Of a stretch of DNA of 35,033 nucleotides, positions 23,869 to 34,924 are shown piece after piece (positions within the stretch are counted from its first letter, which is position 1; every line of letters begins with the position of its first letter). The DNA lies in contig JAGQRJ010000486.1 in the NCBI GenBank assembly GCA_020425635.1, positions 1-35,033 of the forward strand, written 5' to 3'. The notes beneath the pieces are model-generated. The model was not told the origin of the DNA. It saw only the letters and a list, made by a program, of their open reading frames with translations, and did no database searches. Source of the DNA: Planctomycetota bacterium. GTDB taxonomy: Bacteria; Planctomycetota; J058. A program made the position numbers and the translations under genes.

Positions 23869-23922
23869 ATGACGGTTCGTTCACCAAAGCTTCGCGGGGA
23901 CTTCAGGAAGCCCGGCTAACGT
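23869..23922 (+). promoter_or_regulatory. Arn box and candidate promoter of the first ArnT-like gene
   Basis: ATGACGGTTCGTTCA at 23869-23883 matches ATGATGGTTCGTTCA upstream of arnB (27862-27876) at 14 of 15 positions. In each case a TANNNT hexamer follows: TAACGT at 23917-23922 after 33 bases here, TACCTT after 34 bases there. The core has a direct repeat (GTTCGTTC) and an imperfect dyad (TGA-N8-TCA). No good -35 is seen, which fits activator dependence. I infer a binding site for the neighbouring response regulator. Confidence 0.55.
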
Positions 23923-23982
23923 AAGGCCAAGTCGTGCCAGGCGCCCGTGGAGCATCGCGGGTCGCGCGCGCGAGGAGCCCCC

Positions 23983-25704
23983 GTGAACACCCCCGACGGC
24001 TACGCCGCGCTCGTCGACCCGCAGGCCACGGCCGCGGACGCGACCACCCGCAAGGTCGCCTGGGTCACGATCCCCCTCGTGCTCCTGGTGTTCCTCTTCG
24101 GCGGCGGCTTCCAAAACCTCGAGGGAGACGAGGTGCGCGTCGCCGGGATCGCCGCGGGCATGCAGGCGGGGCAGTCGTCAGTCGCGGTGCCACGCCTGGC
24201 GGGGCGCGAGTTCCTCGAGAAGCCGCCCCTCGGCTTCGCCTGCGTGGCGGCCTCCTTTCGGGTGCTCGGCACGTCGAGCTACGCCGCGCGCCTGCCGGGC
24301 CTCGTGTTCGGACTGGTCGGAGCGCTGCTCCTCGGGGTCCTCGCCTGGGACGTCTACGGATCCCGCGCGGCGGCCCTCGCCGCGGCGCTGGGCCTGCTCT
24401 TCAACGCGGAGCACTTCTGGGTCGCGCGGAAGTGCGTCGTGGACAACGCCCTGGCCGCGGGGGTGATCACGAGCGTGGTCCTGTTCTGTCGGGCCGTGGA
24501 CCGTCCGCGGCAGCGCTGGCTGTGGTTACCGCTCGCCGCCAGCGCGGTCGCGGTGGCCTGCCTCGCCAAGGGCGCGATCGGGCTCGTGCTCCCCGCGCTG
24601 GCCTTCGCCGGTGTGCTCGCCGGGCGCCGCAGCCTGGGGATCCTCAAGAGCGGGTGGTTCTGGATCTGTCCGCTGGTGGTGGCCGCCCCGCTGCTCCTCT
24701 GGCTCTACGCGGTCTACGCCGAGGGCGGCGAAGCCGCGCTGCGGATCGTGGTGGTCGACAACCACCTGCACCGCTTCTCGCCCAGCGAGGACTACCTCGG
24801 CGGACACCAGCGGCCGTTCTGGTTCTACGTCGGCAGGCTGCCGGCGGTGCTCTTGCCGGCGCTGGTGTTCCTCCCGGCCAGCCTTCGCTGGCACTGGGCG
24901 CGCCTCGAGCAGCAGCGGATCCGCGAGGTGCTCTGGTTGAGCGCGGGGTGGCTGGGCCTGGGGTTCGTGATCCTCAGCCTGGCGGGCACGAAGCGCGTGA
25001 TCTACCTGCTCCCCATCGTCGCCCCGGCGCCCCTGCTGGCGGCGGGCTGGTTGGCGAGCCTCCTCGAGCCCCGACCCCTGGACCGCCTCGAGGCCTGGAC
25101 CCTGCGCGCGCTCGTCGCGGCCGTGGTGCTCGGCGCGGTCGGGCTCCCGGTGGCGCTGGCCCTGGGCCCCGACTCCCCGCCGGTGTGGAGCGTCGCGGCC
25201 ACCGCGATCACGCTCGGCGCGGCGGGCGCGACCGCCCTCGCCTACCGCTCGGGCCCGCGCGCCGCCTTCCTCCTCGGCGCCGTGCTCAGCGGGGCGCTGA
25301 TCGTGGCGGTGGCGCTGCAGGTGGCGGGCCAGGTCGAGGAGCGGAAGAACTCGGAGCCGCGCAGCTTCTACGAGGAGGTCGCGCGACGGGTCCCTCCAGG
25401 GGCGCAGGTGCGCGTGTTCCCCGCCTCCGAGCACGGGCTGGGCGCCTTCACCTACTACACCGGGCGCGTCCCCGAGACCCTCTGGGGCACCCACGACGAG
25501 GCCATGCGGGTCAACCTCGAGCGCTGCCGCGCGGACCTGAGGGCCGCGAAGCCCCTGTTCGTCGTGGTCCTCGACAAGCAGCATCGCGCCGACGTCCCGC
25601 CCCTCTGGGAGCAGCTGCGCGAGCCGGGGGTGCACGTGCTCGCCCAGGAGACCCGAGGCCGCTGGACGAGCACCCTGCTCGCGAACCGCGCCGCTACGAA
25701 CTGA
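23983..25704 (+). CDS. ArnT-like lipid A glycosyltransferase (GT83/PMT family), first copy
   Basis: The 573-residue integral membrane protein has about twelve hydrophobic helices and a hydrophilic C-terminal periplasmic domain (~450-573). The family hallmark follows helix 1: LEGDEVRVAGIAAGM (D49-E50, the catalytic-site acidic pair) and, later, REFLEKPPLGF (E79-K80-P81). AKGAIGLVLP, SLAGTKRVIYLLPI and DYLGGHQRPFWFYV are typical of ArnT. ArnT enzymes move L-Ara4N from undecaprenyl phosphate to lipid A. Related PMT enzymes use other sugars, so the donor is not certain. GTG 23983 is chosen for AGGAG five bases upstream. It carries the shared Arn box and overlaps the histidine kinase gene tail-to-tail by 11 bases. 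Confidence 0.85.
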   Translation: MNTPDGYAALVDPQATAADATTRKVAWVTIPLVLLVFLFGGGFQNLEGDEVRVAGIAAGMQAGQSSVAVPRLAGREFLEKPPLGFACVAASFRVLGTSSYAARLPGLVFGLVGALLLGVLAWDVYGSRAAALAAALGLLFNAEHFWVARKCVVDNALAAGVITSVVLFCRAVDRPRQRWLWLPLAASAVAVACLAKGAIGLVLPALAFAGVLAGRRSLGILKSGWFWICPLVVAAPLLLWLYAVYAEGGEAALRIVVVDNHLHRFSPSEDYLGGHQRPFWFYVGRLPAVLLPALVFLPASLRWHWARLEQQRIREVLWLSAGWLGLGFVILSLAGTKRVIYLLPIVAPAPLLAAGWLASLLEPRPLDRLEAWTLRALVAAVVLGAVGLPVALALGPDSPPVWSVAATAITLGAAGATALAYRSGPRAAFLLGAVLSGALIVAVALQVAGQVEERKNSEPRSFYEEVARRVPPGAQVRVFPASEHGLGAFTYYTGRVPETLWGTHDEAMRVNLERCRADLRAAKPLFVVVLDKQHRADVPPLWEQLREPGVHVLAQETRGRWTSTLLANRAATN

Positions 25705-27103
25705 GCGGCGGAGCCGCGGAGTCCTTGAGCGCCGGGAGCGAGACGGTGAAGGTCGTGCCCGCGCCGAGGGTGCTCTCGACCGCGATCGCGCCGCGGTGTA
25801 CTTCGGCGATCCGCTTGACCAGCGCCAGCCCGAGGCCGAAGCCCCCGGCGTCGCTGCGCACGCGGAAGAAGGGCTCGAACAGCCGCTCGAGCAGCTCGGG
25901 GGAGACGCCCTCGCCGGTGTCGCGGACCACGATCTGGCAGGCGTCGTGCACGCGCTCGACCCCGACCGTGATCCGCCCCCCGGGCTGGGTGTAGTGGATC
26001 GCGTTCTCGACCAGGTTCCAGAGGAGCTGGCGCAGGAGCGGGGGATTGGCCCGCAGCTCGAGCGATTCCCAGCGGCTGCGCACGAGGGTCAGGTCCTTCT
26101 CCGAGGCGAGCACCTCGGCGTCTTCGAGGACCTCGGCGAACACGGCCGCGGGGTCGACCGCGTGCTCCGTGTCGACGCCCCCGTCGAGCCGGGCGAGGTT
26201 CAGCAGGCCCTGCACGAGCTGGGTCATGCGGTCGACCTCCGCGAGGCAGCTCTCGAGCGCCTCCTGGCTCGCGGGGGTCTCGGCCTTGGCGAGGAGCGCG
26301 TCGAGCTCGCCGCGGAGGATCGTGAGCGGCGTGCGCAGCTCGTGGGAGGCGTCGGCGGCGAAGCCGTTGAGCGCCTTGAACGCGGTCTGCATCCGGTGCA
26401 GCGCCCGATTCATGGCCGTGGCGAGCTGATCGACCTCGTCGCCCGAGCCGGGCTGGGGCAGGCGCTGATCGTGCCGCGCGGCGCTGAGGGTGTCGGCTTC
26501 ACGGACCATGCTCGCGAGCGGGCGCAGCGCGATCCCGGCCAGCCACCAGCTGAGGAAGCCGCCGAGCGCGATCGCCCCAGGCACCAGGATCAACGCCAGA
26601 CGGGTGTAGCTGGTGAGCAGCCCGTTGGCGTGCCGCCGCGACGACGCGACCACGAGGGTGCCGATCGGGCCGCCGCGCTCGGGCTGAGTCCACACCAGCC
26701 TGCGCTCCGTGGGGAGGTCGGCGTCTGCGCGCCACGCGTCGTCGTAGCGCACGCCCGAGCTCGGGGCCGGCGGCGGACGCAGGGCGGCGTCGAGGTCCGC
26801 GTTGGCCGCGAGCAGGCGACCCTGGGCGTCCCACACCGCGATCCCGACCTCGCCCTCCTCGGCGTCGACCAGCTCCTGGGCCAGCCGGGCGTCGAAGGCT
26901 CCGGAGCGCGCGCGCTGTCCGTAGGCCTCGACGAACTCCTCGGCCTCCGCGCGCAGGTGGAGGTCGAGTTCGTGGTCGAGCCAGCCTCGCAGCTGCTGCA
27001 GAAACACGGAGACCAGGGCCAAGGACAGCGCAGCGACCGCGAAGGTCCCGGCGACCCCGACCCGGCCGCGGATCGAGAGCGGCTGGGGCCACGGCGCGCT
27101 CAA
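25694..27103 (-). CDS. Sensor histidine kinase (PmrB/QseC type)
   Basis: The 469-residue inner-membrane sensor has TM1 at ~15-35, a periplasmic domain at ~36-165, TM2 at ~168-189, then HAMP (~190-245), HisKA with phospho-acceptor H254 (DASHELRTPLTILRGE), and a complete HATPase: N box NLVENAIHY (N367), RDTGEG (D395), FEPFFRV, and GFGLGLALVK. The periplasmic part is rich in Asp/Glu, with two E-x-x-E patterns (E56-E59, E82-E85); PmrB senses ferric iron through such motifs. It starts at TTG 27103 overlapping the regulator stop (TTGA), with GGAGGAG just upstream, so the two are coupled. Its position between two Arn units suggests it controls them; the signal is unknown. Confidence 0.93.
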   Translation of the reverse strand: MSAPWPQPLSIRGRVGVAGTFAVAALSLALVSVFLQQLRGWLDHELDLHLRAEAEEFVEAYGQRARSGAFDARLAQELVDAEEGEVGIAVWDAQGRLLAANADLDAALRPPPAPSSGVRYDDAWRADADLPTERRLVWTQPERGGPIGTLVVASSRRHANGLLTSYTRLALILVPGAIALGGFLSWWLAGIALRPLASMVREADTLSAARHDQRLPQPGSGDEVDQLATAMNRALHRMQTAFKALNGFAADASHELRTPLTILRGELDALLAKAETPASQEALESCLAEVDRMTQLVQGLLNLARLDGGVDTEHAVDPAAVFAEVLEDAEVLASEKDLTLVRSRWESLELRANPPLLRQLLWNLVENAIHYTQPGGRITVGVERVHDACQIVVRDTGEGVSPELLERLFEPFFRVRSDAGGFGLGLALVKRIAEVHRGAIAVESTLGAGTTFTVSLPALKDSAAPPLSS

Positions 27104-27780
27104 GGCTCCTCCTGGCCGAAGCAGTAGCCCATGCCCCGGCGGGTCAGGATCGTGCGCTCTCCGGCCGGGTCGCCGAGCTTCTTGCGGATTCGGCGCACGT
27201 GCACGTCGATCACGTTGGAGAGGATCTCCGAGCGGTAGTCCCACACGTGCTCGAGGATCATCGAGCGCGAGAGCACCACGCCGGGCCTGCGCATGAAGTA
27301 CTCCAACAGGCTGAACTCCCGCGGGGAGAGCTCGACCGGCTCCCCGGCGTGGCGCACCCGGCGGCGGGCGGGGTCGAGCTCGGTCTCCCCGACCTTGAGC
27401 ACGGCGTCGGCGCTCCCCGAGCCGCGGCGGAGCAGCGCCCGCACCCGGGCGAGGAGCTCGGCCACGGCGAAGGGCTTCACGAGGTAGTCGTCGGCCCCCG
27501 AGTCGAGCCCGCGCACGCGGTCCTCCACGCTGTCGCGCGCGGTGACGACCAGGATCGGGACGTCCCGCGTCCCGTCGGCGCGCACCCGGCGCAGGACCTC
27601 GAGCCCGGAGAGCTCGGGCAGCCCGAGGTCCACGATCAGGAGGTCGTAGGGCTCGCTCAAGGCGAGGTGCAGCCCGTCGACGCCGTCGCTGCTGCGGTCG
27701 AGGGCGTGCCCTTGCTCGCGCAGCGCGGTCGCCATGATCCGGGCCAGCTTCTCGTTGTCTTCGATCAGCAGGATTCGCAT
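27100..27780 (-). CDS. OmpR/PmrA-family response regulator
   Basis: The 226-residue regulator has a receiver domain at ~1-118, with acidic pair E7/D8, phospho-acceptor D51 (LLIVDLGLPELSG), T80 and K102 (VKPF), and a winged-helix DNA-binding domain at ~127-222 (DPARRRVRHAGEPVELSPREFSLLEYF, VWDY, NVIDVHVRRIRKKL, RGMGYCF). All phosphorylation residues are present. Its partner is the overlapping histidine kinase. It is divergent from arnB, with 165 bases between them that contain the Arn box. OmpR-type regulators bind direct repeats upstream of -35, consistent with the box position. PmrA- or PhoP-type lipid A control is the likely analogue. Confidence 0.95.
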   Translation of the reverse strand: MRILLIEDNEKLARIMATALREQGHALDRSSDGVDGLHLALSEPYDLLIVDLGLPELSGLEVLRRVRADGTRDVPILVVTARDSVEDRVRGLDSGADDYLVKPFAVAELLARVRALLRRGSGSADAVLKVGETELDPARRRVRHAGEPVELSPREFSLLEYFMRRPGVVLSRSMILEHVWDYRSEILSNVIDVHVRRIRKKLGDPAGERTILTRRGMGYCFGQEEP

Positions 27781-27861
27781 GTCCGTTCCCGCGCAGAGGA
27801 TACCTGGCGTGGCTGGCTGCTTTGAAGAAGTTTCACTCGGGCGGGCCAGGCCCCTTCGAGA

Positions 27862-27916
27862 ATGATGGTTCGTTCATTTTCGATTGGCGCGCTTGTCATG
27901 TGTCGCTGCCTACCTT
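27862..27916 (+). promoter_or_regulatory. Arn box and candidate promoter of the arnBCADT operon
   Basis: ATGATGGTTCGTTCA (27862-27876) repeats the box found at 23869-23883. TACCTT at 27911-27916 is the matching -10 candidate after 34 bases. AATGA/TCATT flank the core as an inverted repeat in this copy. Transcription from here would give a short leader of about 20-25 bases before ATG 27946, which has GAGG five bases upstream. The box also lies about 80 bases before the divergent regulator gene, so autoregulation is possible. Confidence 0.55.
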
Positions 27917-27945: not shown

Positions 27946-29121
27946 ATGCAGACGCGAACCAAGCCGATCCCCTTCTCGAGGCCGACCATCGACGAACTCG
28001 AGATCGACGAGGTCGTCGACTCCCTGCGCTCGGGGTGGATCACCTCGGGGCCCAAGGTCGAGCGCTTCGAGGCCATGTTCCGCGAGCGGCTCGGCGTCGA
28101 GCACGCGGTCGCGGTCAACTCGGCCACCGCCGGGCTGCACCTGGCGATCGCCTGCCTCGACCTGCAGCCGGGGGACGAGGTGATCGTGCCCACGCTGACC
28201 TGGGCCTCGACCGCCAACGTCGTCGAGCTCTGCGGCGGGCGCACGGTGTTCGCCGACGTGGACCCGGGGACGCTGTGCCTCGACCCCGAAGACGCGCGCC
28301 GGCGGATCACGCCGCGCACCCGCGCGATCGTGCCCGTGCACTACGCCGGACAGCCCGCGGACCTCGACCCCCTGCGCGCCATGGCGCAGGAGCACGGCCT
28401 CGCCCTGATCGAAGACGCGGCCCACGCGCTGGGGACCTTCTACCGGGGCGAAGAGGTCGGCGCGAGCGGCGGCGTGACCGTCTACAGCTTCCACCCGATC
28501 AAGAACATCACCACCGGCGAAGGCGGCATGATCGTCCTCGACGACGAGGCCCTGGCCGAGCGCCTGCGCCTGCTGCGCTTCCACGGCGTCTCCAAGAACG
28601 CCTGGAAGCGCTACAGCGGCGGCGGGCGACCGCGCTACGAGGTGGTCGAGCCCGGCTACAAGTACAACATGCTCGACCTCCAGGCCGCCCTGGGGATCCA
28701 GCAGCTCAAGAAGCTCGAGGCCTTCAACGCCCGCCGCGCCGAGCTCGCCGAGCGCTACGGGCGCTTGCTGGCCGAGGTCCCCGAGATCACGCCCCTGGCC
28801 AGGGTCGACTACCCCGCGGTCCACTGCTGGCACCTCTACATCGTGCGCCTCGACCTGAGCGCGGTGACCCTCGACCGCGACGACTTCATGCAGGCCCTCG
28901 GCGAGGAGCAGGTCGGGACCGGGCTGCACTTCCCCCCGCTGCACACCCAGTCGTTCTTCCGCGAGAAATACGGCTACCGCGAGGGCTCGTTGCCCCACGC
29001 CGAGCAGGCCGGCGAGGAGATCTTCTCGCTCCCGCTCTACCCCCTGTTGACCGACGAAGACCAGGACGACGTCGTGAGCGCGATCAAGAAGGTCGTGGCG
29101 GCGCACCGGAGCGCACCGTGA
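27946..29121 (+). CDS. arnB: UDP-4-amino-4-deoxy-L-arabinose aminotransferase ArnB
   Basis: The 391-residue PLP enzyme of the DegT/DnrJ/EryC1 family converts UDP-Ara4O to UDP-L-Ara4N with glutamate. Typical ArnB features are IPFSRPTIDELEIDEV at the start, SGWITSGPKVERFE, NSATAGLHLA, IEDAAHALGT (PLP-binding Asp157), and SFHPIKNITTGEGGM with Schiff-base lysine K186. GYKYNMLDLQAALG and the C-terminal TGLHFPPLHTQSFF also fit. E. coli ArnB is about 380 residues. ATG 27946 is preferred over in-frame ATG 27862, which lies inside the regulatory box and lacks a ribosome site. It overlaps arnC by four bases (GTGA). Neighbouring arnC, arnA, arnD and arnT make the assignment firm. Confidence 0.94.
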   Translation: MQTRTKPIPFSRPTIDELEIDEVVDSLRSGWITSGPKVERFEAMFRERLGVEHAVAVNSATAGLHLAIACLDLQPGDEVIVPTLTWASTANVVELCGGRTVFADVDPGTLCLDPEDARRRITPRTRAIVPVHYAGQPADLDPLRAMAQEHGLALIEDAAHALGTFYRGEEVGASGGVTVYSFHPIKNITTGEGGMIVLDDEALAERLRLLRFHGVSKNAWKRYSGGGRPRYEVVEPGYKYNMLDLQAALGIQQLKKLEAFNARRAELAERYGRLLAEVPEITPLARVDYPAVHCWHLYIVRLDLSAVTLDRDDFMQALGEEQVGTGLHFPPLHTQSFFREKYGYREGSLPHAEQAGEEIFSLPLYPLLTDEDQDDVVSAIKKVVAAHRSAP

Positions 29122-30149
29122 GCCCGACGCCTCAGCTCTCGATCGTGATCCCCGTGCTCAACGAGGAGGCCAACCTCCCCGAGCTCTTTCGCCGGCTGTT
29201 CGGAACCCTCGAGGGGCTGGAGCTGAGCTACGAGGTCTTGATCGTCGACGACGGCTCGACCGACTCCAGCCTGGAGCTGGTCCGCGCCGAGCAGCGCACG
29301 CGCCCGCAGCTGCGCTCGCTGCCCTTCGTGCGCAACTTCGGCCAGCACGCCGCGGTCATGGCCGGCTTCGAGGGGGCCCGCGGCGAGTGGATCGTGACCC
29401 TCGACGCCGACCTGCAGAACCCGCCCGAAGAGGTCGCGAAGCTCGTCGAGGCCTTCCGCGCGGGCCACGACCTGGTGAACACCGTGCGCCAGGGCCGCGA
29501 CGACCCGCTGTTCCGCAAGCTCGCCTCCCGCGCGGTGAACTCGCTCGCGCGCCGCTGCTCGGGGATCCAGCTCAACGACTTCGGCTGCATGCTCCGCGGC
29601 TACCACCGCGACCTGATCGTGCCCATGACCCGCCGCCGGGAGTTCGGCACGTTCATCCCCGCCCTGGCCATGCTCTACGCGCGCAACCCGGTCGAGATCC
29701 CGGTCGCCCACGCCCCGCGCACCGAGGGCGACTCCAAGTATTCGCTGCTCAAGCTGTTTCGCCTGCAGCTCGACCTGGTGACCAGCTTCTCGCTCTCGCC
29801 CCTGCGCGCGCTCTTCGGCTTCGGCGTGGCCACCGCGCTCCTGGGGATCGGCTTCGGCCTCGTGCTGTTCGCGCTGCGCCTGATCTACGGTCCCGAGTGG
29901 GCCGTGGACGGGGTGTTCACCCTGTTCGCGGTGCTGTTCGTGTTCGTGGGCGCGCAGTTCTTCGCCTTCGGCCTGCTCGGCGAGTACATCGGGCGGATCT
30001 ACCAGGAGGTCCGCGAGCGCCCGCCCTTCCTCCTGGCGGAGCCCGCGGTCGAGGCTCCGGCCGAGGCGCCCGCCGCCGCTGAGGACGAAGCGCCCGCGCC
30101 GGCCGAGTCCGCGCGCGCGGAGGTCGAGCACCCGGTGGGGACCCCGTGA
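29118..30149 (+). CDS. arnC: Undecaprenyl-phosphate 4-formamido-L-arabinose transferase ArnC
   Basis: The 343-residue family-2 glycosyltransferase puts Ara4-formyl-N on undecaprenyl phosphate at the cytoplasmic face of the inner membrane. The GT-A domain shows SIVIPVLNEEANLPELF, DDGSTD (44-49) and DADLQNPPEE (D96, D98); then HRDLIVPMTRRREFGTFIP as in ArnC. Two membrane helices lie at ~231-253 and ~264-287, ending GEYIGRIYQEVRERP. A ~37-residue Ala/Pro/Glu-rich tail (307-343) extends beyond the E. coli protein (322 residues). It starts at GTG 29118 within the arnB stop and ends by GTGA overlap with the next gene. Confidence 0.94.
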   Translation: MSPTPQLSIVIPVLNEEANLPELFRRLFGTLEGLELSYEVLIVDDGSTDSSLELVRAEQRTRPQLRSLPFVRNFGQHAAVMAGFEGARGEWIVTLDADLQNPPEEVAKLVEAFRAGHDLVNTVRQGRDDPLFRKLASRAVNSLARRCSGIQLNDFGCMLRGYHRDLIVPMTRRREFGTFIPALAMLYARNPVEIPVAHAPRTEGDSKYSLLKLFRLQLDLVTSFSLSPLRALFGFGVATALLGIGFGLVLFALRLIYGPEWAVDGVFTLFAVLFVFVGAQFFAFGLLGEYIGRIYQEVRERPPFLLAEPAVEAPAEAPAAAEDEAPAPAESARAEVEHPVGTP

Positions 30150-31066
30150 GCATCGCGCTCTTCGCTTACCACGAGCTCGGGCACCAGGCCCTGCAGACCC
30201 TGCTGGCCGAGCAGGCTCCGGTCGTCGGCGTGTTCACCTACGAGGACGACCCCGACGAGAACTGCTGGTTCGGCTCGGTGAGCGAACTCGCCCGCGACGC
30301 CGGGATCCCGACCTTCACCCCCGCCGACGTGAACCAGCCCGAGTGGGTCGCGAAGCTCCGCGAGCTCGCCCCCGAGGTCCTGCTCAGCGTCCACTACCGG
30401 CACATGCTCAAGCGCCCGATTCGCCGCGTCCCGAGCCGGGGCTGCCTGAACCTGCACACCTCGCTGCTCCCCAAGTACCGCGGGCGCTGCCCGCTCAACT
30501 GGCAGCTCGTCCACGGCGAGCGCGAGTCGGGCGTGACCCTGCACGAAATGGTCGCGCGCGCCGACGCCGGCGCGATCGTCGACCAGGAGCGCGTCGCGGT
30601 GGGTCCCGAGGACACCGCCCTCGAGCTCTACCAGAAGCTGCTCCCCGCGGCGCGCGCCGTGCTCACCCGTCAGCTCCCCGCGATCCTCGCCGGCGCCTGG
30701 CCCCGGCGCGAGCAAGACGAAGCCCGGGTCACCAAGTTCGGCGGGCGCGGCCCCGAAGACGGGCGGATCGACTGGAGCGCGCCGGCGCAGCGGATCCACG
30801 ACCTCGTGCGCGCGGTCAGCCGCCCCTGGCCAGGCGCCTTCTGCGACGTGGCCCCCGGGCGGGTCATGGTGTGGCGCACCCGCGTCGCGGCCCTGCCGCC
30901 GAGCGCGGAGGCGCTGGAGCCGGGCGCGACCTGGTCCGACCCCGCGGGGCGCGCCTACGTGCGCGCGGGCGAGGGCTGCTTGGAACTTTTGGATTTCGAG
31001 CTCCCCGAGGGGCTCAGCATCGGTGACGGCCTCGCTTCGCAGGCCGCAGGAGTCTCTGCTTCGTGA
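30146..31066 (+). CDS. arnA: UDP-L-Ara4N formyltransferase (ArnA N-terminal half as a separate protein)
   Basis: The 306-residue protein matches the N-terminal domain of bifunctional ArnA, which formylates UDP-L-Ara4N using N10-formyl-THF. FAYHELGHQAL, the catalytic N102 and H104 in LNLHTSLLPKYRGR, and D140 in RADAGAIV fall at the same residue numbers as in E. coli ArnA (N102, H104, D140). The C-terminal OB-like region includes RIDWSAPAQRIHDLVRAVSRPWPGAF. In E. coli this domain is fused to the decarboxylase; here the frame stops at 31066 and the decarboxylase starts at 31063 in another frame. It is complete, not a broken gene. Confidence 0.93.
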   Translation: MSIALFAYHELGHQALQTLLAEQAPVVGVFTYEDDPDENCWFGSVSELARDAGIPTFTPADVNQPEWVAKLRELAPEVLLSVHYRHMLKRPIRRVPSRGCLNLHTSLLPKYRGRCPLNWQLVHGERESGVTLHEMVARADAGAIVDQERVAVGPEDTALELYQKLLPAARAVLTRQLPAILAGAWPRREQDEARVTKFGGRGPEDGRIDWSAPAQRIHDLVRAVSRPWPGAFCDVAPGRVMVWRTRVAALPPSAEALEPGATWSDPAGRAYVRAGEGCLELLDFELPEGLSIGDGLASQAAGVSAS

Positions 31067-32100
31067 AAGTCCTCATCCTCGGCGTCAACGGCTTCATCGG
31101 CCACTCCCTGGCCACGCGGATCCTCGCCGACACCGACTGGGAAGTCGCCGGCATGGACCTCGAGTCCGACCGCGTCCGGGGCCTGCTCGAGAACCCGCGC
31201 ATGCGCTTCCTCGAAGGCGACATCGCGATCCACCGCGAGTGGATCGAATACCACGTCAAGCGCTCGGACGTCGTGCTGCCCCTGGTCGCGATCGCGACCC
31301 CCGCGACCTACGTCACCAACCCGCTGGGGGTGTTCAAGCTCGACTTCGAGGAGAACCTGCGGATCATCCGCTACGCCACGGCCTACAACACGCGGGTCGT
31401 GTTCCCCTCGACCTCCGAGGTCTACGGGCTCTGCCCCGACCGGGCGTTCAACGAGTTCACCAGCAACCTCGTCATGGGGCCGATCGACAAGCAGCGCTGG
31501 ATCTACGCCTGCGCCAAGCAGCTCCTCGACCGGATCATTTGGGCCTCGGGCGAGCAAGAGGGCCTGCGCTTCACGCTCTTCCGCCCGTTCAACTGGATCG
31601 GCCCTGGCCTCGACGACATCGACTCCGCCAAGGAGGGCAGCAGCCGGGTCGTCACCCAGTTCCTCGGCCACCTGCTGCGCCGTGAGCCGCTGCAGCTCGT
31701 CGCCGGCGGTCATCAGCGGCGGAGCTTCACCTACATCGACGACGGGATCGAGGCGCTCATGCAGATCCTGCGCAACGAAAACGGCGTCGCCGACCGCCAG
31801 ATCTTCAACATCGGGCACCCCGGGAACGACTGCTCGATCCGCGAGCTCGCAGAGCACATGCGCGGGATCGTGGCCGAGCAGCCGGGCTACGAAGACGTCC
31901 GTCACGCGTCGCTGACCGGCGACGTGAGCGAGGCGGAGTACTACGGCGAGGGCTACCAGGACATGCCCTGCCGCGTGCCCGACGTGAGCAACGCGCGCAC
32001 CCGCCTGGGCTGGGAGCCCCAGGTCGACCTCGACACCGCGCTGCGCAAGACGATCGCGCACTACGTGGGCCGCGAAGCCGTCGCCTGCCCCACGGGCTGA
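31063..32100 (+). CDS. arnA: UDP-glucuronic acid decarboxylase (ArnA C-terminal half as a separate protein)
   Basis: This 345-residue extended SDR enzyme oxidatively decarboxylates UDP-glucuronate to UDP-Ara4O. The Rossmann motif is GVNGFIG (7-13). Active-site residues align with E. coli ArnA at constant offset: S118/E119 (S433/E434) in PSTSEVYG, Y148 and K152 (Y463, K467) in YACAKQLLDR, and R304 (R619) in CRVPDVSNA. The Arg distinguishes the ArnA decarboxylase from UDP-xylose synthases. It starts at GTG 31063, overlapping the formyltransferase stop by four bases. It is followed 29 bases later by arnD. The subunits may still associate, as the domains of E. coli ArnA form hexamers; that is inference. 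Confidence 0.93.
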   Translation: MKVLILGVNGFIGHSLATRILADTDWEVAGMDLESDRVRGLLENPRMRFLEGDIAIHREWIEYHVKRSDVVLPLVAIATPATYVTNPLGVFKLDFEENLRIIRYATAYNTRVVFPSTSEVYGLCPDRAFNEFTSNLVMGPIDKQRWIYACAKQLLDRIIWASGEQEGLRFTLFRPFNWIGPGLDDIDSAKEGSSRVVTQFLGHLLRREPLQLVAGGHQRRSFTYIDDGIEALMQILRNENGVADRQIFNIGHPGNDCSIRELAEHMRGIVAEQPGYEDVRHASLTGDVSEAEYYGEGYQDMPCRVPDVSNARTRLGWEPQVDLDTALRKTIAHYVGREAVACPTG

Positions 32101-32129: not shown

Positions 32130-33050
32130 GTGAGCGAACGGCCGCTGTGCAGCCTGAAGGTCGACGTGGACACCCACGACGGCATGCGCGACGGTGTGCC
32201 CCGCCTGCTCGAGGCCTTCGCGCGCCACGGCGTGAAGGCCACGTTCTTCCTCTCCTTCGGGCCCGACAACGCGGGCAAGGCCGTGTGGAACCTCGTGCGC
32301 CAGCGCGGGTTCATGCGCAAAATGCTCAAGACCGGCGCGCCCAAGCTCTACGGCTGGCGCACGGTGCTCTCGGGGACCCTGCTCCCGGCGCGCCCGACCG
32401 CCGCGGCCATGCCCGAGCTGGTGCGCCGGATCGAGGCCGAGGGCCACGAGGTCGGGGTCCACGCCTGGGACCACCGGCTGTGGCAAGACCACCTGCACCG
32501 CCTCTCGCGCCCCCAGGTGGAGGAGCAGGTGCGCCTGGCCTGCGACGCCTTCGAGGGGATCCTCGGCCGGCGGCCCCAGGCCGTCGCGGCGCCGGCGTGG
32601 TACGTCTCGCGCACGAGCCTCGAGCTCCACGACGCCCTGGGGCTGCTCTACGCCAGCGACATGCGCGGCGGCGCCCCGGCCTTCCCCGAGCTCGAGGGCT
32701 ATCGCTCGACGACGCTCCAGATCCCGACCACCCAGCCCTGCCTGGAGGAGCTCCTGACCCTCGGGCAGCGTGACCCGGCGACGTGGGTCGACCTCGTGCT
32801 GCGGCCCCCCGCCGAGCCCGTCGACGCGCTCGTGCTCCCGCTGCACGCCGAGGTCGAGGGGGGCGTCTACGCCAGCTTCCTCGACGAGCTGCTCGAGCGC
32901 CTGACCGGCACCCACGACGTCGTGCCCCTCGAGGGGGTCGCGCGGCGCGCCCTCGCGCGGGACCCCGGGGTGCGGCCGGCGACCCTCGCGCCCTGCTCGG
33001 GCCGCGCGGGGCGCGTGTTCGCCTTCGAACCGGCCGGCGTCGAGGTCTGA
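32130..33050 (+). CDS. arnD: 4-deoxy-4-formamido-L-arabinose-phosphoundecaprenol deformylase ArnD
   Basis: The 306-residue NodB-homology deacetylase removes the formyl group from lipid-linked Ara4FN. The metal site is shown by KVDVDTHDG (D12, D14) and HAWDHRLWQ (H111, H115). Other ArnD blocks are GVPRLLEAFARHGVKATFFLSFGPDNAG, KLYGWRTVLSGT, ASDMRG, TLQIPTTQP and LHAEVEGGVY. It starts at GTG 32130 with AGGAG six bases upstream. The C-terminus (~265-306) runs beyond the E. coli enzyme (~296 residues) with a Pro/Arg-rich tail. The stop is two bases before arnT. Confidence 0.94.
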   Translation: MSERPLCSLKVDVDTHDGMRDGVPRLLEAFARHGVKATFFLSFGPDNAGKAVWNLVRQRGFMRKMLKTGAPKLYGWRTVLSGTLLPARPTAAAMPELVRRIEAEGHEVGVHAWDHRLWQDHLHRLSRPQVEEQVRLACDAFEGILGRRPQAVAAPAWYVSRTSLELHDALGLLYASDMRGGAPAFPELEGYRSTTLQIPTTQPCLEELLTLGQRDPATWVDLVLRPPAEPVDALVLPLHAEVEGGVYASFLDELLERLTGTHDVVPLEGVARRALARDPGVRPATLAPCSGRAGRVFAFEPAGVEV

Positions 33051-33052
33051 GC

Positions 33053-34924
33053 ATGACGCCCGCTCAGCCCCAGGGGGTCCGCGCGGTGCGCGCGACCGAC
33101 CCCGAGCCCCTCGGCCACGAGCGCCCCGGCCCGCAGCCGGCCACCCCCCGCCGACGGTGGCTCGGGGTCGTGGCCCTGCTCGCGCTGCTCGCGTTCAACG
33201 GCGTGGGGGCCTTCCCCCTGCACGAGCCCGACGAAGGCCGCTACGCGGACGTCGCGGCGGCCATGGTCCGCGACGGCGACTGGCTCACCCCGCGCCTGAG
33301 CGGGATCGACTACTACGAGAAGCCCGCGCTGCACTTCTGGTGCGTCGGGGCGAGCCTCGCCCTGTTCGGGCACTCGGAGGGACCGGCCCGGCTCTCGACC
33401 TCCCTCGCGTTCCTGCTCACCGCGCTGCTCGTGGGCGCCTGGGCCGGGCGGATCGGGGGCGAGCCCGCGGGGTCGTCGCCCTCGGCGCGGCCCGGCCGGC
33501 CCTTCGGCTGGCAGGCGGCGGCGGTCTTCGTCACGCTCCCGCTCGCGGGCTTCTTCGCGCACATCATTCTGGTCGACACGACCCTGACCTTGTTCACCAC
33601 CTGCTGCTTGTTCGCGAGCTACCGCGGGTTGATCGAGCCCGAACCCGACGCCCCGCCGCGGCGGCGGTGGATCCTGCTCGCCTGGGGCGCGGCGGGGCTG
33701 GCCATGCTCACCAAGGGCCCGATCGGGGTCGTGCTGCCCTTCGGCGCGGTCGGCGGGACCCTGCTCCTGACCCGCTCCTGGGGCAGGATCGGGGCGCTGC
33801 TGCGCCCCGACGGGCCGCTCGTGTTCCTCGCGGTGTGCGGGCCGTGGTTCGCGTGGATGTGCGCGGAGCACCCGAACTACGCGCGCGCCTTCTTCCTCGA
33901 GCAGAACCTCGCCCGCGCGACCACCGGCGGGAAGTTCGAGCGCGACGGCGCGCTGTGGTACTACCTGCCCGTGCTCCTGGTGGGCTTCCTCCCCTGGGTC
34001 GCCCTGCTCCCGCGGATCGTCCAGCGCACGCGCGCCAGCGGGGCCCGGCCCACCGACCTCGCGGGGCGCACCCGGCTGTTCCTCGCCTGCGCGGTCGTGG
34101 TGCCGCTGGTGATCCTCTCGCTGGCGGGCTCGAAGCTCGTCTACTACGTGCTGCCCCTCGCGCCGCCCTTCGCCCTGCTCGCGACCGACGCGCTGTTGGT
34201 CGACGCGCAGCCCTCGCCCCGCGCGCGGCGCTGGGGGGGCGCGGCGCTGCTCGGGCTCGGGGCGCTCGTCGTGCTCGCCGCGCTGGTCGCGATCCCCGGG
34301 ATCTGGATCGAGGTCGAGACCCTGCGCGGCTGGTTCGGGCGGAGCCACCTCTCGCCGCAGAAGCTGGAGCTCGAGCTGACCCGCCTGGGCGCGATCCGCG
34401 CCGCGCTCCCGGTCGCGATCCCGGCCGCGGTCCTGATCGGCGCGGGCCTCGCGCTGGCCGGGGTGGCCCTGCGCGGGGGGCAGCGCCTGAGGGCCTTCGC
34501 CGCGCTGGGCGGCTGCGTGCTGCTCGCGCAGCTCGTGACCCCCTACGTCATGGGCTTGGCGGGGCCGGCCTACTCCAACCGCCAGTTGGCGCGCGCGATC
34601 GAGGCCCACGCCGGCGCCACGGGCCCGGTGGTGTGCTTCGGCACCTTCCGCCGCTGCGTGCCCTTCTACCTCGACCGCCCGGTCTACCTCTGGGAGGCGA
34701 ACTACTCCGAGTTCGGCCACGACCTCGCGCCCGGCGAGTGCGAGTTCGCGCTGCAAGACGACGAGGCGGCCCTGGGCGCCCTGATCCGGGAGCACCCCCG
34801 GGTGGTGCTCCTGGCCAAGAACGAGGCCGCGATCGACGCCCTCCGCGCCCTGAGCCCGCTGCCTCTGCGGGTCCTGGCGCACATGGGCGGGCGCGTCCTG
34901 CTCGTGCGCGCCGACGCGCCCTGA
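33053..34924 (+). CDS. arnT: Lipid A L-Ara4N transferase ArnT (GT83), second copy
   Basis: The 623-residue polytopic inner-membrane enzyme transfers L-Ara4N to lipid A phosphates on the periplasmic side. The signature is textbook: FPLHEPDEGRYADVAAAM (D60-E61), GDWLTPRLSG, and YYEKPALHFW (E89-K90-P91), then AMLTKGPIGVVLP, FFLEQNLARATT and LSLAGSKLVYYVLPLAPPFA. It has about twelve membrane helices and a periplasmic C-terminal domain (~500-623). It is longer than E. coli ArnT (550), partly from a ~35-residue hydrophilic N-terminus. It fits the signature better than the copy at 23983. It lies two bases after arnD and closes the operon. Confidence 0.93.
   Translation: MTPAQPQGVRAVRATDPEPLGHERPGPQPATPRRRWLGVVALLALLAFNGVGAFPLHEPDEGRYADVAAAMVRDGDWLTPRLSGIDYYEKPALHFWCVGASLALFGHSEGPARLSTSLAFLLTALLVGAWAGRIGGEPAGSSPSARPGRPFGWQAAAVFVTLPLAGFFAHIILVDTTLTLFTTCCLFASYRGLIEPEPDAPPRRRWILLAWGAAGLAMLTKGPIGVVLPFGAVGGTLLLTRSWGRIGALLRPDGPLVFLAVCGPWFAWMCAEHPNYARAFFLEQNLARATTGGKFERDGALWYYLPVLLVGFLPWVALLPRIVQRTRASGARPTDLAGRTRLFLACAVVVPLVILSLAGSKLVYYVLPLAPPFALLATDALLVDAQPSPRARRWGGAALLGLGALVVLAALVAIPGIWIEVETLRGWFGRSHLSPQKLELELTRLGAIRAALPVAIPAAVLIGAGLALAGVALRGGQRLRAFAALGGCVLLAQLVTPYVMGLAGPAYSNRQLARAIEAHAGATGPVVCFGTFRRCVPFYLDRPVYLWEANYSEFGHDLAPGECEFALQDDEAALGALIREHPRVVLLAKNEAAIDALRALSPLPLRVLAHMGGRVLLVRADAP

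Follow-up and report, generated by a model that had tools for sequence, protein, structure and literature searches.

Control of the arn genes of the L-Ara4N lipid A pathway is known mainly from Proteobacteria, via PmrA and PhoP. In a search of an open-access subset of the literature, none of the titles and passages retrieved described an arn operon under a Pho box, nor did any paper treat aminoarabinose and lipid A in planctomycetes. Pho boxes consist of 11-nt units, namely CTGTCAT-N4-CTGTCAT in E. coli and GTTCACC-N4-GTTCACC for PhoP of S. coelicolor (PMC4415409, PMC4832192). In addition, E. coli PhoB/R controls the LPS-modifying genes eptC and waaH (PMC6358824).

The arn locus described here belongs to an uncultured planctomycete with a genome of 7.46 Mb in 966 contigs (89% complete). 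The window, i.e. the whole stretch of DNA that was analysed, comprises 35,033 nucleotides and corresponds to contig C153. The following genes are of importance:

23983..25704, + strand: first ArnT-like glycosyltransferase (PMT_2; best NCBIfam match ArnT, under the cut-off)
about 25694..27100, − strand: sensor histidine kinase (HK) with HAMP, HisKA and HATPase_c domains
27100..27780, − strand: OmpR/PhoB-family response regulator (RR) with the recognition helix DVHVRRIRKKLG
27946..29121, + strand: ArnB-like aminotransferase (DegT/DnrJ)
29118..30149, + strand: ArnC-like GT2
30146..31066, + strand: ArnA formyltransferase half, as a gene of its own
31063..32100, + strand: ArnA decarboxylase half, as a gene of its own
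32130..33050, + strand: ArnD-like deformylase
33083..34924, + strand: second ArnT-like glycosyltransferase

ArnB, ArnC, both ArnA activities, ArnD and ArnT are co-encoded, with ArnB, ArnC, ArnD and ArnT scoring under the equivalog cut-offs. LpxC is found in the same genome (312 bits) and therefore lipid A, the substrate of the pathway, can be made. ArnA is split over two genes (window 30146-32100), an ArnT-like gene is present on each flank of the arn cluster, and the cluster is located shortly 3' of rpoC. As an earlier note on this DNA had pointed out, the genes of the regulator and its kinase, a two-component system (TCS), lie exactly between the two arn units.

Both arn units are preceded by the same promoter architecture, comprising three units TTCAY-N6 and then a TANNNT hexamer, with the final TCA 14-15 bp upstream of the hexamer. 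All elements are on the + strand:

23869-23883, + strand: box 1, a 15-mer ATGACGGTTCGTTCA whose final four bases TTCA are the start of array 1
23880..23912, + strand: predicted operator 1, three 11-bp units TTCACCAAAGC TTCGCGGGGAC TTCAGGAAGCC, then CGGC TAACGT
23917..23922, + strand: −10 hexamer TAACGT, 14 bp past the last TCA of site 1
27862-27876, + strand: box 2, a 15-mer ATGATGGTTCGTTCA ending in the first TTCA of array 2
27873..27905, + strand: predicted operator 2, three 11-bp units TTCATTTTCGA TTGGCGCGCTT GTCATGTGTCG, then CTGCC TACCTT, the middle unit being degenerate
27911..27916, + strand: −10 hexamer TACCTT, 15 bp past the last TCA of site 2

The cores of the units are TCA, TCG and TCA at 23881/23892/23903 in site 1 and TCA, TGG and TCA at 27874/27885/27896 in site 2. 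Both sites show the head-to-tail 11-bp units with a conserved TCA-containing 7-mer that characterise a Pho box. The distance from TCA to TANNNT (14 and 15) agrees with that in Pho-gene promoters across the phylum, and a −35 element is missing. With TTGG as its middle unit and a spacing of 15 to the −10, site 2 falls far short of site 1 in strength. The three-unit 11-bp period of site 1 has a p of 0.017. A direct repeat GTTCGTTC with a 4-bp period had been proposed instead, but this period reaches only p values of about 0.69 and 0.07 at the two sites; the actual repeat is TTCA/TCA with an 11-bp period. The expected OmpR-type direct-repeat site upstream of a −10 that lacks a −35 element is supported; no sigma-70-type/TTGACA-type promoter was found in the region. 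Furthermore, the box is, as claimed, unlike PmrA or PhoP sites: TTAA and GTTTA are absent on either strand of both upstream regions, so that neither the TTAA-type direct repeats of a PmrA regulon nor the GTTTA-type repeats of an enterobacterial PhoP regulon are present. A LexA-like reading of GTTCG was dropped on inspection.

The earlier note had started from the two 15-mers at 23869-23883 and 27862-27876. They differ by one base, their positions are exact, and a third copy is indeed absent, the window holding no further match even at 3 mismatches. As reported, 33 and 34 bases separate the boxes from their TANNNT hexamers (TAACGT starts at 23917, TACCTT at 27911), each of which is the sole TANNNT in the 111 bp counted from the box start. 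Genome-wide (7.46 Mb), the exact 15-mers occur only in these two copies; at 2 mismatches three additional matches appear, with none for the reversed control. For the two upstream regions as prespecified, a 14/15 match was obtained in 10 of 3000 shuffle pairs (p about 0.003). Any intergenic pair reached 14/15 in 27 of 60 shuffled windows, two other intergenic pairs of the real window do so as well, and the whole window contains 827 direct pairs of 15-mers that differ by no more than one base. Taken alone, the 15-mer match is weak evidence. Moreover, the syntenic arn locus of a genome of the same family (G002) has no 15-mer match within 4 mismatches and the matches in 148 relatives are scattered, which rules out the 15-mer as a conserved box. 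The core GGTTCGTTCA was rejected too; its 6 genome-wide copies are about what we estimate from base composition, and of the four further copies three or more fall within coding frames or at their edges. A longer duplication spanning both promoters was looked for and none was seen. The significance rests in the larger array of which the 15-mer is the edge.

The frequency of 14/15 intergenic matches and the missing conservation of the 15-mer would both fit a likeness of the two promoters that is due to chance or neutral. Against this stands the ranking by a Pho-box model derived solely from other Planctomycetota genomes, namely from 11 of their pstS/phoB/phoU/oprP promoters. Among 69,966 window positions it places 23880 first (31.2 bits) and 27873 second (16.5 bits), hexamer included; rank 3 again falls on site 1, in a shifted, overlapping register, and the best independent position after these has 0.9 bits. 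The shared operator postulated before both arn units is supported in the form of this Pho-type array. With a second model, built from nine units of the perfect arrays in RR-homolog promoters of G007 (two) and G009 (one), site 1 comes out at rank 1 and site 2 at rank 3 among 70,002 window positions. In Markov-resampled windows the score of site 1 was reached in 0 of 300 and that of site 2 0.01 times per window. The seeded models are not fully independent, because the 11-bp TCA register was first spotted by eye (site 1, G007); matrix-type ranking refers to the window, scans of the own genome to pattern matching. The ranks under the other-genome model and the Markov control largely refute the chance explanation, which together with the recurrence of arrays before arn units elsewhere makes it hardly credible.

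A search of the own genome with TTCAYN6TTCRN7TTCA, allowing up to one mismatch, yields just two matches, both exact: site 1 and an array in front of a phosphate permease gene of the PHO4 family. The latter is the best array of this genome (L198:6756-8334, G000:C938) and consists of TTCACGCGCCC TTCACGCGCCC TTCATGCACCC and TACGCT. Among 392 genomes of the phylum about 50 matches were found versus about 4 for the reversed pattern, and downstream of them lie, among others, five pstS genes, four genes for regulators of the phoB type, phoU, and the genes of a phosphate-selective porin and a PHO4 permease. A regulon confined to lipid A genes, as predicted, is not supported: the one further strong array of the own genome precedes the phosphate permease, and the motif marks Pho-regulon genes phylum-wide. 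Pho-type arrays were also noticed before other genes: in family f28 they precede prepilin-like genes by about 150-230 bp (L234-L238; two consecutive arrays in G384), and in five related genomes of this family they stand before DUF5690 membrane transporters (L223-L227; Pfam checked for L223 only).

These data raise the question of whether the arn units are members of the Pho regulon itself. In that case PhoB (G000:C185) would bind in response to phosphate starvation, and the TCS next to the units would be otherwise engaged or PhoB-controlled. The sites have the same architecture and unit consensus as the Pho boxes of pstS, phoB, phoU, oprP and the PHO4 permease, and the companion site in the own genome is a phosphate permease. 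However, PstS (TIGR02136) was not found in this genome, which does encode the PHO4 permease and a PhoB-like regulator; incompleteness may be the cause.

Conservation before the arn operons of relatives, which the earlier note would have counted as support, applies to the TCA array but not to the 15-mer itself. In G027 and in the Brocadiales-type loci L120, L123, L125 and L139, ArnT genes have an array 48-103 bp upstream, with a weaker one in L141; L118 has an 8/9 array. In G027 the only two perfect matches genome-wide belong to phoB and to the arn operon. The arn arrays of G027 and the Brocadiales lack an adjoining regulator (the nearest in G027 is about 8 kb off), which fits PhoB better. A different picture is seen in family f45 (G127, G216, G315, G357, G381, G078, G369), where the top match of each locus lies directly behind an RR-HK pair, just past the HK gene. 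The array reads TTAATTTTGYG TTCATCTCCCG TTCATNTGCC ... TATAAT and in the alignment the array and its TATAAT −10 element make up the invariant block. Downstream of the array, G127, G216, G357 and G381 have LAB_N or GT2 genes, two ArnT-like genes, and arnBC together with genes for ArnA, and G369 has efflux genes; in G315 and G078 the contig ends there. The sequence GATTACAAAAAA just upstream of the f45 array (alignment A3, columns 33-48) is equally conserved.

Among the closest RR homologs, from the same order, perfect 11-bp TCAx3 promoter arrays occur twice in G007 and once in G009, while none of the other homolog promoters examined reached 9/9. The pattern TCAN8TCRN8TCAN11TANNNT gave 8 matches versus 0 for the reversed one in 12 genomes; three of these matches lie no more than 6 kb from the G007 RR pair and its ArnT-like gene. 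The G007 pair has six arrays within 8 kb, four with TANNNT at +14. At this locus (L109, G007:C33:44000-63999) the six Pho-type arrays have C-type units (CTCAY) and surround two divergent RRs, a kinase, an ArnT-like protein, a sulfatase-fold protein, a GtrA and a GT2. The pstS box of the same genome is T-type (TTCAC), which suggests a divergence in specificity between PhoB and its paralog at unit position 1. Since the units of the window are T-type (TTCA) as in Pho genes, this point speaks for the Pho regulon, whereas the arrays directly behind the RR-HK genes of the seven f45 genomes and around the G007 pair speak against it. So does the arn locus of the same-family genome G002, which has neither a TCS nor an array. 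Arrays are also missing at the arn loci L111 and L113. In the deltaproteobacterial clusters L143, L148, L155 and L159 an OmpR-type RR and a kinase adjoin ArnT-arnBCAD without a TTCA array; these clusters probably use a different operator and were dropped for footprinting, and their lack of the array counts against the reading that favours the local TCS.

The RR of the window has its best curated match in the heavy-metal RR subfamily (TIGR01387, 226 bits versus a cut-off of 279). It scores 204 bits against the PhoB equivalog TIGR02154 (cut-off 296), where RRs encoded under Pho boxes of the phylum also score only 236-265 bits, and 199.7 bits against PmrA (PRK10643, cut-off 330). In its recognition helix, DVHVRRIRKKLG, the window RR comes close to planctomycete PhoB (DVHVRSIRKKLG); its nearest homologs by overall identity have DVYVNYLR. 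A perfect TCAx3 array is present in 6 of 62 promoters of homologous RRs and in 0 of 62 coding controls. No ortholog above 55% identity was found in the 392 genomes, so that the pairing of RR and operator is not traceable by strict orthology. The own genome encodes dozens of response-regulator genes, with G000:C185 as the best PhoB-model match, and arrays stand before other CusR-like regulators in relatives as well. An unlinked OmpR/PhoB-family paralog with TCA-repeat specificity might accordingly be the physiological regulator. The RR between the units is more parsimonious and its helix fits, leaving such a paralog very improbable.

The PhoB-like helix of the window RR, the arrays at homologous RR promoters, the f45 and G007 neighbourhoods and the G002 locus favour the local regulator. 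PhoB is favoured by the T-type units, the phosphate permease and the pair of phoB and arn operon in G027. On balance, the local TCS probably acts on PhoB-type predicted operators before each arn unit, possibly sharing them with PhoB. A control by the Pho regulon proper appears rather unlikely. Both regulators may act on the arn operators, and it is tentatively conceivable that Pho-box-type arn operators in Planctomycetota are read by an in-locus PhoB-like TCS as well as by PhoB, with phosphate status and an envelope signal converging.

As to binding, activation, signal and the acting regulator, we infer the following for the local TCS. Each arn unit would be driven by a PhoB-type activator-dependent promoter with three units, a −10 and no −35 element. 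The phosphorylated OmpR/PhoB-family RR would bind the units as tandem protomers and stand in for the −35 contact. Most likely this is the RR encoded between the units, together with its kinase. The PhoB of the genome would likely provide a second layer of input, because the sites are indistinguishable from Pho boxes. Autoregulation of the RR is possible as well, because site 2 sits in the divergent RR/arnB intergenic region. Several planctomycete lineages thus have arn units with Pho-box-type operators, often beside a dedicated TCS (with a PhoB-like helix in the case of the window). Phosphate signalling or a PhoB-like regulator would then be linked with the charge modification of lipid A, and the resulting site model is usable for scanning other genomes.

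In comparison with known systems, the arrays resemble Pho boxes in their 11-bp head-to-tail units with a TCA core, the lack of a −35 element and the TANNNT that follows the last unit at a constant distance; site 1 contains the S. coelicolor GTTCACC exactly (23879-23885). They differ in having three units instead of two, in standing before arn genes and in adjoining a non-PhoB regulator. With PmrA/PmrB (BasR/BasS) the locus shares an OmpR-family TCS beside, and probably controlling, arn/ArnT genes. However, its operator is a TTCA array without TTAA and its RR, with a PhoB-like helix, lies far under the PmrA cut-off. The CusR/CopR/CzcR group (TIGR01387) comprises the best curated match of the RR, and array-bearing homologs also occur beside efflux genes, but the score below the cut-off, the recognition helix and the arn neighbours set the window RR apart. 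As with E. coli PhoB/R, LPS-modifying genes would stand under a Pho-type regulator; there phosphoethanolamine and glucuronate are added to the inner core, whereas here it is the arn pathway.
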